Of a stretch of 64,000 nucleotides of DNA, positions 57,263 through 63,298 are shown piece after piece. Source of the DNA: Agathobacter sp. Its GTDB lineage: Bacteria; Bacillota; Clostridia; Lachnospirales; Lachnospiraceae. Made by a program: the position numbers and the translations under genes. Within the stretch, counting starts at the first letter, position 1, and every line of letters starts with the position of its first letter. Where the stretch lies: positions 248,001 through 312,000 of the forward strand of contig JAFQRZ010000024.1 in NCBI GenBank assembly GCA_017409825.1. Direction: 5' to 3'. The notes under the pieces were generated by a model. It was not told the origin of the DNA, did no database searches, and saw nothing but the letters and a program-made list of their open reading frames with translations.

Positions 57263-58153
57263 ATGTTTAGTCAGTTTTTTGGAAATTATTTATTTTCTAA
57301 TGGTCATGTAACCAAGGAACAGCTTTTACCTGCTCTCGCTCGCCAATCCAAAGCGATGATGCATGTAAGTACATTAGCTTTATATTCTGGGTATATGTCT
57401 GCACAGGAAATCCAGCATGTTATCGACTTACAGGAAGAAGAAGGCAAAAAATTCAGCGAAATCGCTATTAAATATGGATATTTGACTCAGCATCAGGTCA
57501 TGGATCTACTGAATATGAAAGCACCTGATTTCTTAATCCTTGGTCAAATTCTTATTAATGATGGTGTATTTTCTTATGAAGAATTTGAGAACATTTTAAC
57601 AGACTACCGTTCTCAGACAGAATTTTTAGATTTTGAGTTAAATGAGGAAAATAGAAATGACTTCCATCGTTTAGTTGAAGACTTTTCTATTATTTCCGAA
57701 GCAGCCATTCCTGAATTCGGTAAATCTTATCTGGAATTATTATTTAATAACTTTGTACGCTACATTGGGGATGATTTCTCAACACTTCCACCAAGTCTTT
57801 GTACCGAATTTGCGACAGAATGTTGCGTTTCGCAAACGATTGAAGGACGTTACGTAGTAAATACCTATTTCAACATGGATGAAGCTACTGCCATTGCTTT
57901 TGCAGAACGTTATTCTGGTGAACCATACCACGAGGTGGATGAATATGTCATGGCTTCTATTGAAGATTTACTGAACCTTCATAATGGTTTGTTTATAGTA
58001 AATGCTTCCAATGATAGTTTGAACGAACTCAGCATTGGAGTACTTGGACATCATCCAAACACCATTATTAATTTTGAAAATGCAACATATCTTTTCCCAA
58101 TCTGCTATCCATTTGGCATTATTTATTTCATAATGGAAATTGTCAGTATATAA
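57263..58153 (+). CDS. MshEN-like repeats fused to a CheX/CheC-like domain
   Basis: A 296-residue protein in two parts. Residues 5-115 contain four about 23-residue repeats (5-28, 34-57, 63-86, 92-115) with the pattern L-x2-x-G-x-x(T/S)-x-x-(Q/E)-L..LxxQ, as in the MshEN domain that binds c-di-GMP in some type II/IV secretion ATPases. Residues 140-296 resemble CheX/CheC/FliY phosphatases, with SIEDLLN giving D-x2-N (E-x2-N in the usual motif). Paired with the receiver, it may dephosphorylate it under nucleotide control. All assignments are by eye. Confidence 0.65.
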   Translation: MFSQFFGNYLFSNGHVTKEQLLPALARQSKAMMHVSTLALYSGYMSAQEIQHVIDLQEEEGKKFSEIAIKYGYLTQHQVMDLLNMKAPDFLILGQILINDGVFSYEEFENILTDYRSQTEFLDFELNEENRNDFHRLVEDFSIISEAAIPEFGKSYLELLFNNFVRYIGDDFSTLPPSLCTEFATECCVSQTIEGRYVVNTYFNMDEATAIAFAERYSGEPYHEVDEYVMASIEDLLNLHNGLFIVNASNDSLNELSIGVLGHHPNTIINFENATYLFPICYPFGIIYFIMEIVSI

Positions 58154-58168
58154 TTTAAAGCCATAAAA

Positions 58169-58212
58169 AGAAACCGCCGTTCTATCTTTCTCATAATAGA
58201 ATGGCGGTTTCT
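58169..58212. terminator. Terminator between the CheX-like gene and the phosphomutase gene
   Basis: Arms AGAAACCGCC..TTCTAT and ATAGAA..GGCGGTTTCT (58169-58178, 58203-58212) with AATTTTAA after it; serves both convergent genes. Confidence 0.8.
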
Positions 58213-58216
58213 AATT

Positions 58217-59944
58217 TTAAGCAAACATTTGAAGTAATGAAACCTTAAGATTTTCTAATTTCTCTTCACTGTCTTCTAAACTACTTCCTTTTACTCCGAA
58301 ATAAAACTTAATCTTTGGTTCTGTTCCAGAAGGTCTAACACAACACCAGCTGTTATCTTCTAACTCATAATAAAGTACATTCGACATCGGTAATCCAGTA
58401 GAAACAACATCTCCAGTAATCATATCCGTTCTCGTGTCAGCCTTATAATCTCTTACAGCAAGTACTTTATAATCTCCAAGTTGAACAGGAGGATGATTAC
58501 GAGCATGTTCCATCATCTGCTTAATTTGAGTCGCGCCATCCATCCCTTTTAGTGTAATGGTCTCTAAACCTTCCTTGAAATATCCATACTCCTCATACAT
58601 GGCGAGCATCGCATCCCAAAGCGTCATATTCTTACTCTTATACCAGGAAGCAACTTCACAAAGCATCATGACCGCAACACAAGCATCCTTATCTCTCGCA
58701 TAAGTTCCCGCAAGACATCCATAGCTTTCTTCCAAGCCAAATACATAATTATATGTATGATTTTCTTCAAACAATCGAATTTGTTCCCCAATATATTTAA
58801 ATCCAGTTAATACTTCAATTAATTTCACATCGTATGCTTCTGCAATTACCTTTGCCATATCTGTGGTGACGATGGTTTCTACCAATGCTGGATTAGCTGG
58901 CATCGTTCCAGTAGCTTTACGTTCTTTTAAAATATATTCTGCAATCAGCATTCCAGACATATTTCCTGTAAAGGAAACATATTCTCCTGTCTTTGTATCC
59001 TTACAATAAACGCCCAAACGATCCGCATCCGGGTCTGTTGCAAGTACAATATCTGCATCTACTTCCTTTGCAAGAGCAAGTGCCATTTCGAATGCTTTTG
59101 GCGATTCTGGATTAGGATATGCTACTGTCGGGAAGTTTCCATCTGGAAGCTCCTGCTCTTTTACCACATATACCTTTTCAAATCCCAGTTCCTTTAAGAC
59201 ACGACGCACCGGAAGATTTCCTGTTCCATGCAATGGCGTATAAACAATCGTAAAATCCTTCGCCATTTTCTGGATAATCTCAGGATGAATCGACTGTTTC
59301 TTCAATTCTTCCATATATTTATCATCGATTTCTTCGCCGATTTCAAAGAAAAGTCCAGCTTCTTTTGCAGCATCTAATGACATCGTCTGTACCTGGTCAA
59401 AAGAAGTAACCTTTGCAACTTCCGCTAATATATTTTTGTCGTGAGGTGGCGTAATCTGTCCACCATCCTCCCAATATACCTTGTATCCATTGTATTCTCT
59501 CGGATTATGGCTCGCTGTCAACACAATCCCTGCAATACATCCCAGCTCTCGAACCGCATACGAAAGCTCTGGCGTAGGTCTAAGACTTGTAAAACGATAG
59601 GTCTTTATTCCATTTGCATTCAGGCAAAGCGCTGCTTCCATTGCAAATTCTGGCGACATAATTCTGGAATCGTATGCAATCGCAACCCCTTTCTCCTGTC
59701 CATTCTGAGAAAGAATATAATTTGCAAGGCCCTGTGTTGCCTGACGCACCGTATAAATATTCATACGATTCGTACCAGCTCCGATGACACCTCGAAGTCC
59801 ACCGGTTCCAAATTCTAGCTGACGATAAAAACGATCTTCGATTTCTTTTTCATCGCCCTCTAATGCCTTTAATTCTGCCTGCGTCTGTTCATCAAAATAA
59901 GAATCGGTACACCATTGTGTATATACGTCTCTATAATTCATCAC
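58217..59944 (-). CDS. Phosphoglucomutase/phosphomannomutase
   Basis: A 575-residue alpha-D-phosphohexomutase: active Ser in VLTASHNPREYNGYKVYW, Mg-binding ATDPDADRLGVY, sugar-binding GLEESYGC and C-terminal RPSGTEPKIKFYF. Length and N-terminal YRDVYTQWCTD match the PgcA/phosphoglucomutase-type in Bacillota, which can also use mannose-phosphate. In this operon with two GDP-mannose enzymes, mannose-6-P to mannose-1-P conversion is the likely duty. AGGAG precedes the ATG. Confidence 0.9.
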   Translation of the reverse strand: MMNYRDVYTQWCTDSYFDEQTQAELKALEGDEKEIEDRFYRQLEFGTGGLRGVIGAGTNRMNIYTVRQATQGLANYILSQNGQEKGVAIAYDSRIMSPEFAMEAALCLNANGIKTYRFTSLRPTPELSYAVRELGCIAGIVLTASHNPREYNGYKVYWEDGGQITPPHDKNILAEVAKVTSFDQVQTMSLDAAKEAGLFFEIGEEIDDKYMEELKKQSIHPEIIQKMAKDFTIVYTPLHGTGNLPVRRVLKELGFEKVYVVKEQELPDGNFPTVAYPNPESPKAFEMALALAKEVDADIVLATDPDADRLGVYCKDTKTGEYVSFTGNMSGMLIAEYILKERKATGTMPANPALVETIVTTDMAKVIAEAYDVKLIEVLTGFKYIGEQIRLFEENHTYNYVFGLEESYGCLAGTYARDKDACVAVMMLCEVASWYKSKNMTLWDAMLAMYEEYGYFKEGLETITLKGMDGATQIKQMMEHARNHPPVQLGDYKVLAVRDYKADTRTDMITGDVVSTGLPMSNVLYYELEDNSWCCVRPSGTEPKIKFYFGVKGSSLEDSEEKLENLKVSLLQMFA

Positions 59945-61039: not shown

Positions 61040-63298
61040 TTAGATATTCGTTAAAATAAATTCGCATACCCCTTGAATTGTAAGCACCTTACGCCCAGCA
61101 GAGATGAAAAAACTATCCCCAGCCTTGGCTTCTACATTTTCTTCCTGGCAAATAATATTCGCCTCTCCTGATAAGAAAACGATAGACCCAAATGATGCAT
61201 CATCCATATAAATCATAATTTCTTCTTCTACATCATATTTGGTACATTCAAAATACTTACATAAGCAAAGCTTCTGTATTGTTGTACTGCCTTCCTTTAC
61301 AGGTTCTTCCAGACCATAAGCATCTAGCTGATATTTTTCCAAGGATAAAACATCCAACGCCTTTTCGATATGCAATGGACGGCATTTTCCTTCTGTATCC
61401 ATTCTTTCGTAATCATACACACGATACGTACTATTCGAATTCTGCTGAATTTCGCAGATAAGCAAGCCTTTTCCAATCGCATGAATGGTTCCCGCAGGAA
61501 TAAAGATTACATCTCCTTTTTGAACCTCTACACGATTTAGCACCTCTGTAATTGTATGGTTTTCAATATGCTTCTGAATTTCTTCTTTTGAAACATCTCT
61601 AGAAAAACCACAATACAAATATGCGCCTGGCTCTGCATCCATGATATACCACATTTCATTTTTCCCGAATTCGTTTTCATTCACAAATGCATAATCATCG
61701 AATGGATGCACCTGTACCGAGAGTGGATTGGTTGCATCAATAAATTTAATCAAAATAGGGAATCTCTCCTCCGATTGGTTTTTCCAGCCACAAACCTTAC
61801 TACCATATTCCCTAAGAAAATCACCAAAATATGTATGGTCGAATTCGCCGCCAACAATACGGCTCTGTCCATCCTTATGCGCAGACAATTTCCATGATTC
61901 TGCAGTTACATCATACGGACTATTTTCATGGAACACATCGACCAAACGATTTCCGCCCCACAAATAATCCTTGTACGCAGGCTCCAGACGGTAAATATTT
62001 GGAAGTTCCGTCTTTTCTATATCCTCATCCAAATGTATCATATCCTGCTCATCAATTTCTGCACCTGTATCTACTTCAATCGCCACTACATCTTCTGATG
62101 TCTCATTATAAATACGATGCAGTGTCTTTGGAAGAATATTGATACTCTCTCCTGCATGGATTTCATGAATACCATCTTCCAGTTCTACCGAAAGAATACC
62201 TTTTACCACGGAATAGTTCTCATTTCGTTTGCTATGACTATGCTTTGACAAAGATTTTCCTGCATAAACATGTAATTTTCTTACACGATAGCCATGCTCC
62301 TGCGAAATCACTTCTCTCGTTCCCCATGGACGATAAACCATTGGCGTTACATCAAAATAATCATTGTATTTATCTGTTGATTCAAGTGCCATAATGCCTT
62401 TGATATCCTGTTCACACGACTTATCTGTAATATAAATTGCATCATTAGTATTAATAACATATACATTTTTCAAATGATTCGTTACAACAAGCTGATGCGA
62501 CGTCGTATTTATAACCGATGTATTTTCGCAGGCATAAGAAATTACATTTTGATCCTGCTTTTCCTGTGCTAGACTCTCATAAGTATCAAAATTACTAATA
62601 TCACACCATTTACAACGAAGCGGTACGACTGCTAAATTCTTTGAATGCTCTAAAATTGCCTTTTCAACATGAATTCGTTCTATCGTTTTACGCAAATGTG
62701 GTGTATGTTCTTTGAACTCTTTTCTTAAAAACTCGTTACTACACAAAAGCATTCCACTATTCCAATAAATGTCATCATCAGAAAAAATACGCTCCGCTAA
62801 TGACAAAGATGGTTTCTCAATAAAACGAATGACCTCGTTTCCCTTATAGCGGATATATCCATAAATCGTACTAGGTTCTTCTGCTCTGGTTCCAAACAAA
62901 ACACCTTTCCCCTTTGCACTAAGCTCCTTTGCTTTATAAATGGCATACATATATCCGTCTCCATGCACAAACAAATCTGCTGGACTAATCAAAAGTTCCT
63001 CTTCTTTTGGCAGCATTCGTGATACAGCATATAATGCAGGGGCAGTTCCCATTGCCTCCTGCTCAAGCAGAACCTCATATTTGATGCCCTGAAACTGTTT
63101 CATTTGTCCTTCCACAATTTCTTGATATGCCGTATTTGTTACAATATAAAACCCATCACAATATGGCATATTTCGAGTAATTGTATCTTGAAACAAAGAA
63201 TTACCACTATCCATGGTCAAAAACTGTTTCGGAAATTTTTTTCTTGATAAAGGCCATAGACGGTCCCCAAAACCGCCTGCCAAAATAACACATTTCAT
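61040..63298 (-). CDS. Fused mannose-1-P guanylyltransferase, cupin, and class I mannose-6-P isomerase
   Basis: A 752-residue three-module protein. Residues 1-315: nucleotidyltransferase (LAGGFGDRLWPLSRKKFPKQF; SPADLF where SPADH is usual). Residues 323-412: cupin with H353 and H355 and PWGTREV, as in type II PMI domains. Residues about 438-752: ManA-like phosphomannose isomerase (PAYKDYLWGGNRL, SVQVHPFDDYA, HAIGKGLLICEIQQNSNSTYRVYDY). It could thus convert F6P to M6P and M1P to GDP-mannose. The fusion is unusual; no frameshift is seen. It starts at an ATG at 63298. Confidence 0.9.
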   Translation of the reverse strand: MKCVILAGGFGDRLWPLSRKKFPKQFLTMDSGNSLFQDTITRNMPYCDGFYIVTNTAYQEIVEGQMKQFQGIKYEVLLEQEAMGTAPALYAVSRMLPKEEELLISPADLFVHGDGYMYAIYKAKELSAKGKGVLFGTRAEEPSTIYGYIRYKGNEVIRFIEKPSLSLAERIFSDDDIYWNSGMLLCSNEFLRKEFKEHTPHLRKTIERIHVEKAILEHSKNLAVVPLRCKWCDISNFDTYESLAQEKQDQNVISYACENTSVINTTSHQLVVTNHLKNVYVINTNDAIYITDKSCEQDIKGIMALESTDKYNDYFDVTPMVYRPWGTREVISQEHGYRVRKLHVYAGKSLSKHSHSKRNENYSVVKGILSVELEDGIHEIHAGESINILPKTLHRIYNETSEDVVAIEVDTGAEIDEQDMIHLDEDIEKTELPNIYRLEPAYKDYLWGGNRLVDVFHENSPYDVTAESWKLSAHKDGQSRIVGGEFDHTYFGDFLREYGSKVCGWKNQSEERFPILIKFIDATNPLSVQVHPFDDYAFVNENEFGKNEMWYIMDAEPGAYLYCGFSRDVSKEEIQKHIENHTITEVLNRVEVQKGDVIFIPAGTIHAIGKGLLICEIQQNSNSTYRVYDYERMDTEGKCRPLHIEKALDVLSLEKYQLDAYGLEEPVKEGSTTIQKLCLCKYFECTKYDVEEEIMIYMDDASFGSIVFLSGEANIICQEENVEAKAGDSFFISAGRKVLTIQGVCEFILTNI

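Follow-up and report, generated by a model that had tools for sequence, protein, structure and literature searches.

The choice between sessile and motile life is set by c-di-GMP. In Vibrio MshE (PDB 5htl) the MshEN domain is built of two 24-residue motifs separated by a 5-residue spacer; the glycine of its RLG element and the residue that follows form backbone hydrogen bonds with guanine, and each glutamine binds ribose and phosphate (Wang et al., 2016, PMC5013675). The receiver phosphatases CheX and CheZ act through two inserted residues, one an amide and the other acidic, of which the acidic one forms a salt bridge with the receiver lysine (PMC3035606). The phosphatase CheX is listed with further domains that associate with MshEN, in one phrase that refers to a supplementary table and mentions neither a partner receiver nor an operon nor a function (Wang et al., 2016, PMC5013675); this was the only paper to mention both MshEN and CheX in the open-access collection searched. 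The original prediction, that no system with this layout had been described, is therefore wrong in part. Descriptions of the receiver pair and the kinase operon reported below were not found in the open-access literature searched, as judged by titles and the starts of abstracts.

Here we compare with these systems two adjacent genes from the genome of a gut bacterium (Agathobacter sp., contig JAFQRZ010000024.1), analyzed as part of a window, that is, the whole stretch of DNA considered, of 64,000 nucleotides. The first gene encodes a stand-alone CheY-type receiver and the second a protein of MshEN-like repeats joined to a CheX-like domain. Our preferred reading, to which we assign a probability of roughly 0.55 on the basis of sequence comparison, is that the two genes represent a dedicated module of receiver and receiver phosphatase that was ancestrally gated by c-di-GMP and whose sensor has been altered in this lineage.

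Layout and conservation of the gene pair

The two reading frames lie 5 bp apart on the + strand, and the genes that flank them are both on the opposite strand (Table 1). The hairpin that follows the second gene is absent from the list produced by a consensus terminator scan, which has a loop limit of 8, compared with a loop of 10 in the hairpin. Given this strong 3' hairpin and the opposite orientation of the outer neighbors, the pair seems to form a single short transcription unit. Elsewhere in the window, a 752-aa ORF (61040-63298, - strand) appears by eye to be a mannose-1-phosphate guanylyltransferase joined with a mannose-6-phosphate isomerase, and a second guanylyltransferase-like gene adjoins it.

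Table 1. Features of the receiver and MshEN-CheX gene pair, with positions in the window.
Feature	Position	Strand	Evidence
Stand-alone CheY-type receiver, 124 aa	56883..57257	+	Response_reg 2e-23; D12 D13 D57 S85 K107
MshEN-like repeat plus CheX-like protein, 296 aa	57263..58153	+	Profile matches
MshEN-like repeat 1, residues 5-28, FFG start, without basic residue	57275..57346	+	Motif scoring
Repeat 2, residues 34-57; HVS instead of [KR]LG, Gln57 kept	57362..57433	+	Motif scoring
Repeat 3, residues 63-86; KFS instead of [KR]FG, Lys86 instead of Gln	57449..57520	+	Motif scoring
Repeat 4, residues 92-115, ILG start, without basic residue	57536..57607	+	Motif scoring
CheX-like domain, about residues 191-287	57833..58123	+	Pfam and family profile
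D235-L-L-N238, aligned with CheX E-x2-N phosphatase motif	57965..57976	+	Alignment
Strong hairpin, possible terminator of the two-gene unit, between convergent genes	58164..58219	+	-27.5 kcal/mol, z -7.98

The acid pair, the phospho-accepting aspartate, the Ser/Thr and the lysine of a CheY-type receiver are all present in the upstream protein, as had been predicted, and the protein has no output domain. These residues are conserved among the partner receivers, with D12 and D13 found in 73/73 rows with letters at these positions and D57, S/T85 and K107 in 74/74. Judged by its residues, the receiver is competent for phosphorylation.

A survey of gene-pair conservation upheld the proposed pairing. 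At 93 loci, some of them near-identical to one another, the receiver lies upstream of the MshEN-CheX gene in 51 and downstream in 37, is naturally fused to it in three and is absent from two, giving 91/93 that are paired or fused. One of the receiver-less loci (L033) is on a contig that ends only about 320 bases downstream, and the other (L088) comes from a genome with two copies, of which the remaining one (L105) has its receiver beside it. The 93 rows leave out L035 and L097-L103, in which the match falls in the repeats and no CheX part was counted, as well as L037, L078 and L104, which are second copies of L002, L001 and L031, respectively; L036 gave no match. Among the proteins left out, those of L035 and L097-L102 are 560-572 aa long, and that of L103 (641 aa) is classed by Pfam as a glycosyltransferase and matches MshEN and DUF4388 at its N-terminus. 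Within the genus, 34 genomes (own included) had a match, 30 of which were read as loci, with G003, G014, G021 and G023 standing outside the receiver count. In a sample of 398 genomes from the phylum, searched with the phosphatase profile alone, 26 matched, 19 with the CheX part, and a receiver accompanied 18/19 of the CheX-bearing loci outside the own genome.

In our phylogenetic analysis, the tree was built from 75 of the 93 rows, after removal of three truncated rows and of 15 close relatives that were picked by eye. Alignment A1 contained 66 rows of an earlier set of 75 (three fused rows, one duplicate and five close relatives were left out). The arrangement of the genes needs at least two changes of state on the tree, one from upstream to downstream and one fusion, indicating that adjacency outlived a change of gene order; at the level of sequence, then, the pair has been conserved through both reordering and fusion. 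Receiver and phosphatase distances were strongly correlated (r 0.94 for 58 pairs; 0.84 for 35 of the window clade, Mantel p 0.001), a result that shared ancestry alone could also give.

MshEN repeats and the altered c-di-GMP motif

Four N-terminal repeats were recovered as predicted. Their predicted length of about 23 residues was not, as the motifs are 24 residues long, begin at residues 5, 34, 63 and 92 and recur with a period of exactly 29, the sum of a motif and a 5-residue spacer as in MshE. Scored against the relaxed 11-position motif given for MshEN (Wang et al., 2016, PMC5013675), the four repeats together reached 38/44, whereas the best score among 5000 shuffled versions of residues 1-130 was 29. 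The NCBIfam model NF053729 for an MshE-related c-di-GMP motif matched the 296-aa protein above its cut-off of 38 bits (47.6 bits, E 1.1e-12) and matched 66/66 aligned family members at E 0.01, and the family profile matched the solved MshE structure (5htl) at 1.1e-6. The Pfam MshEN model PF05157 was not reported for the 296-aa protein in a Pfam scan and was not among the first 25 of 38 Pfam families listed for family members. The MshEN-like assignment was nevertheless supported by the NCBIfam match and the profile match to solved MshE. Sub-threshold Pfam matches to a fumarase C-terminus, Myb and EF-hand fall on the helical repeats and were set aside; the fumarase model matches 53/66 and DUF4388 40/66 family members at E 0.1, and we read both as probably the same helical repeats.

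Repeats 2 and 3 correspond to the canonical c-di-GMP unit of MshE, 53 residues long in most relatives examined, which read [KR]-h-G...Q followed by [KR]-F-G...Q. The family differs from MshE in having four motifs rather than two, and repeats 1 and 4 have no basic residue in the window protein and seven relatives compared. Taking a basic residue or Asn at position 34, Gly at 36 and 65 and Gln at 57 and 86 as the motif, 81/93 rows keep it; the exceptions are the window subclade L001-L004, L061, L067, L091, L092-L093 and L094-L096. L094, L095 and L096, from three genomes that belong to one genus, have lost repeats 1-3 wholly or for the most part, and the CheX part and the adjoining receiver remain.

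In contrast to MshE, the window protein and its three nearest relatives (L001-L004) have lost both motif glycines and one glutamine. The window protein reads HVS...Q / KFS...K, with G36 and G65 changed to Ser, Q86 to Lys and His at basic position 34, and thus does not show the [RK]-h-G and Gln expected in both motifs for contact with c-di-GMP. With both RLG glycines, one glutamine and the basic residue replaced, c-di-GMP as the ligand of this protein, as originally proposed, is unsupported. The fuller form of that proposal, in which c-di-GMP would bind the window protein itself and tune dephosphorylation of the receiver, could draw on the NF053729 match above cut-off, the intact motif of most relatives, the c-di-GMP enzymes encoded in the genome and the view that perfect motif conservation may not be required for MshEN (Wang et al., 2016, PMC5013675). 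We consider it quite unlikely, as all four replacements fall at contacts described for MshE, and XpsE, with changes including both glycines and the second glutamine, has lost binding (PMC5013675).

Among positions with a conservation of 90% or more in 34 clade relatives, the window protein has lost 8/18 in repeats 2-3 vs. 7/51 elsewhere (Fisher p 0.011). When only the five key contacts within this set were set against the rest, the difference was not significant (3/5 vs. 12/64, p 0.065), so the excess of losses in repeats 2-3 is moderate. Against the 94%-identical relative L002, dN/dS was 0.035 across the full gene and 0.042 for repeats 2-3, leading us to reject decay of the gene; against the more distant L003 it was 0.125, with dS saturated. 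Loss of c-di-GMP metabolism was also rejected as the origin of the change, with GGDEF matches in 40/40 genus genomes. Because 16 of these matches are in the own genome, c-di-GMP is probably made there. The loss of pocket glycines and one glutamine despite purifying selection suggests that the sensor half is probably independent of c-di-GMP here or tuned to something else, while for the family as a whole c-di-GMP gating is plausible since most relatives keep the motif.

The own genome also contains a paralog of 435 aa (L031 1710-3017, contig C6 of G000), in which MshEN repeats with an intact c-di-GMP motif, a CheX part with E-x2-N and a receiver form one chain. Its gene is flanked by those for an M18 aminopeptidase and a Mur-ligase-type protein.

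The CheX-like domain and its putative catalytic residues

On the 296-aa protein alone, the Pfam CheX match was sub-threshold (14.6 bits against a cut-off of 27, E 0.035). At the level of the family, the same model (PF13690) matched 61/66 members with E values of up to 0.1, the lowest being 4.2e-12, and the family profile matched the solved CheX of Borrelia (3hzh, 2e-4) as well as 1squ and 1xko (range 2e-4 to 2e-3). These matches bear out the predicted CheX homology and the predicted placement of D-x2-N at the phosphatase motif: in the alignment with Borrelia CheX, position 235 (Asp here) stands opposite Glu and N238 opposite Asn of E-x2-N. The domain thus shares with CheX of Borrelia and of the Thermotoga type (1squ, 1xko) the acid-x2-Asn of the catalytic helix and a CheY-type receiver as partner, and the window protein differs from them in its four N-terminal MshEN repeats, in Asp for Glu and in a gene that lies beside its own receiver.

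Across the 93 rows, positions 235 and 238 are occupied by E-N in 54, D-N in 38 (window protein included) and E-S in one, giving an acidic residue at 235 in 93/93 and N238 in 92/93. The difference between Glu and Asp requires one change on the tree; L041 and L081, on the same branch as the Asp rows of the window genus and near relatives, keep Glu. The window protein also departs from the family at position 261, where 77/93 rows have Pro and the four-member subclade of the window has Leu or Ile (Leu in the window protein). A Pro 23 residues after the catalytic Asn belongs to the CheX consensus, and this residue is missing from the window protein.

Asp in place of Glu together with Leu at 261 could mean weak or no catalysis. 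Accordingly, the CheX-like domain might be a non-catalytic output partner, bound by the phosphorylated receiver, which would in this way control the MshEN-repeat protein, itself acting on another target. The residues at 235 and 261 would fit such a role, as would the lack of an operon-type kinase in 40 genus genomes (see below). We regard it as rather unlikely, given that the acidic residue and N238 are kept almost throughout and that E-x2-N persists in more than half of the rows. In CheZ, moreover, Asp serves as the acidic residue. The CheX/CheZ mechanism needs an acid and an amide (PMC3035606), by which the change from Glu to Asp appears conservative, though it is no proof of activity.

Proposed mechanism and candidate kinases

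From these comparisons we infer how catalysis, ligand and kinase may be assigned in the module. In the preferred reading of a receiver with its dedicated phosphatase, a CheA-type kinase would phosphorylate the receiver and the CheX-like domain would dock on it, after which N238 would orient the attacking water and D235 would pair with K107, leading to removal of the phosphate. Binding of c-di-GMP at repeats 2-3 would switch the phosphatase activity in most relatives; in the window lineage this gating would have been lost or changed. The simplest guess for the output of the receiver, in a genome with flagellar and chemotaxis genes, is a motor or chemosensory target. Counted against this reading are the sub-threshold CheX match, Asp235, Leu261, the lack of an operon kinase in the genus, FliY- and CheC-type matches in the own genome, the p-value for key contacts and the dN/dS against L003.

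A candidate kinase is encoded with the pair in some relatives. The order MshEN-CheX, receiver, kinase was found on one strand in six loci from two phyla, three in Solidesulfovibrio and Desulfovibrio (L046, L047, L048) and three in the window's own phylum (L113, L116, L120). HATPase_c was over cut-off in 5/5 kinases scanned. For Hpt, the match was over cut-off in L047 and L048 and below it (E 1e-4) in L113 and L116, with none reported in the fifth, and a His-x2-Lys-Gly-Asp segment is common to all five in the alignment. In the four kinases scanned against NCBIfam, the CheA match was restricted to the catalytic part and fell far short of the cut-off for the whole protein, and no CheW match was reported in the five operon kinases scanned. 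By tblastn, the L046 kinase is 70% identical to that of L048. The CheA-like operon kinase may be independent of chemoreceptor arrays. The gene at L048 6324-8342 is a member of this family, in which Hpt-like and HATPase parts are combined and to which the kinases of L113, L116 and L120 also belong; a sub-cut-off CBS match was seen in the kinase of L116 only.

PilZ proteins and HD proteins of the HD-GYP type are parts of c-di-GMP systems. L047, L048 and L113 each have a PilZ gene directly upstream, and HD_5 genes lie near L113 and L118.

A wider reading, which we offer as speculation, is that CheA-like kinase, lone receiver and MshEN-CheX phosphatase constitute an undescribed module of two phyla, in which the c-di-GMP level would directly set the lifetime of receiver phosphorylation. 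Some lineages would be without the operon kinase and others would have the nucleotide site altered or the repeat domain deleted, with the receiver-phosphatase pair persisting throughout and the pocket of the window protein reshaped for another ligand. If true, this would be a direct molecular junction between c-di-GMP and two-component phosphorylation. It would also offer an evolutionary series (sensor intact, altered or deleted; genes separate or fused; with or without operon kinase) for the gain and loss of second-messenger control.

A full-length match to the operon kinase was found in 4/25 module-bearing genomes searched. None was found in 40 genus genomes including the window's, in which G062 matched in the N-terminal part only; in the window genome, matches were confined to the catalytic part and fell at CheA-like genes. 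In the absence of a full-length operon kinase from these 40 genomes, a flagellar-type CheA is the simplest candidate for the receiver kinase in the window genus. The window genome matches FliM and CheW, as do 38/40 and 39/40 genus genomes, respectively. In the phylum sample, CheW was present in 19/19 module-bearing genomes vs. 315/379 others (p 0.033), and FliM in 18/19 vs. 309/379, which was not significant (p 0.12); one genome (G370) has the module and no FliM match. Chemosensory parts therefore accompany the module, but a link to flagella was not supported.

These distributions bear on a further explanation, that the genes are accessory chemotaxis components of the ordinary kind, without input from a second messenger: an additional CheX, and an additional CheY that would draw phosphate from the flagellar CheA as a sink. 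The frequency of FliM and CheW in the genus and the CheW association across the phylum would agree with this, as would the genes near the pair in some relatives, which are CheW in L066 and L076 (at a distance of up to about 4 kb) and a chemoreceptor in L112. We consider it very unlikely, since in the window genome the pair is about 255 kb from CheA on the same contig, the FliM association was not significant and FliM is unmatched in G370 despite the presence of the module, and the MshEN motif is kept in most rows. Contigs C31 and C34 of the own genome (G000) carry a second set of CheA and CheW whose scores are identical on the two contigs, which reflects either true duplication or redundancy in the assembly.
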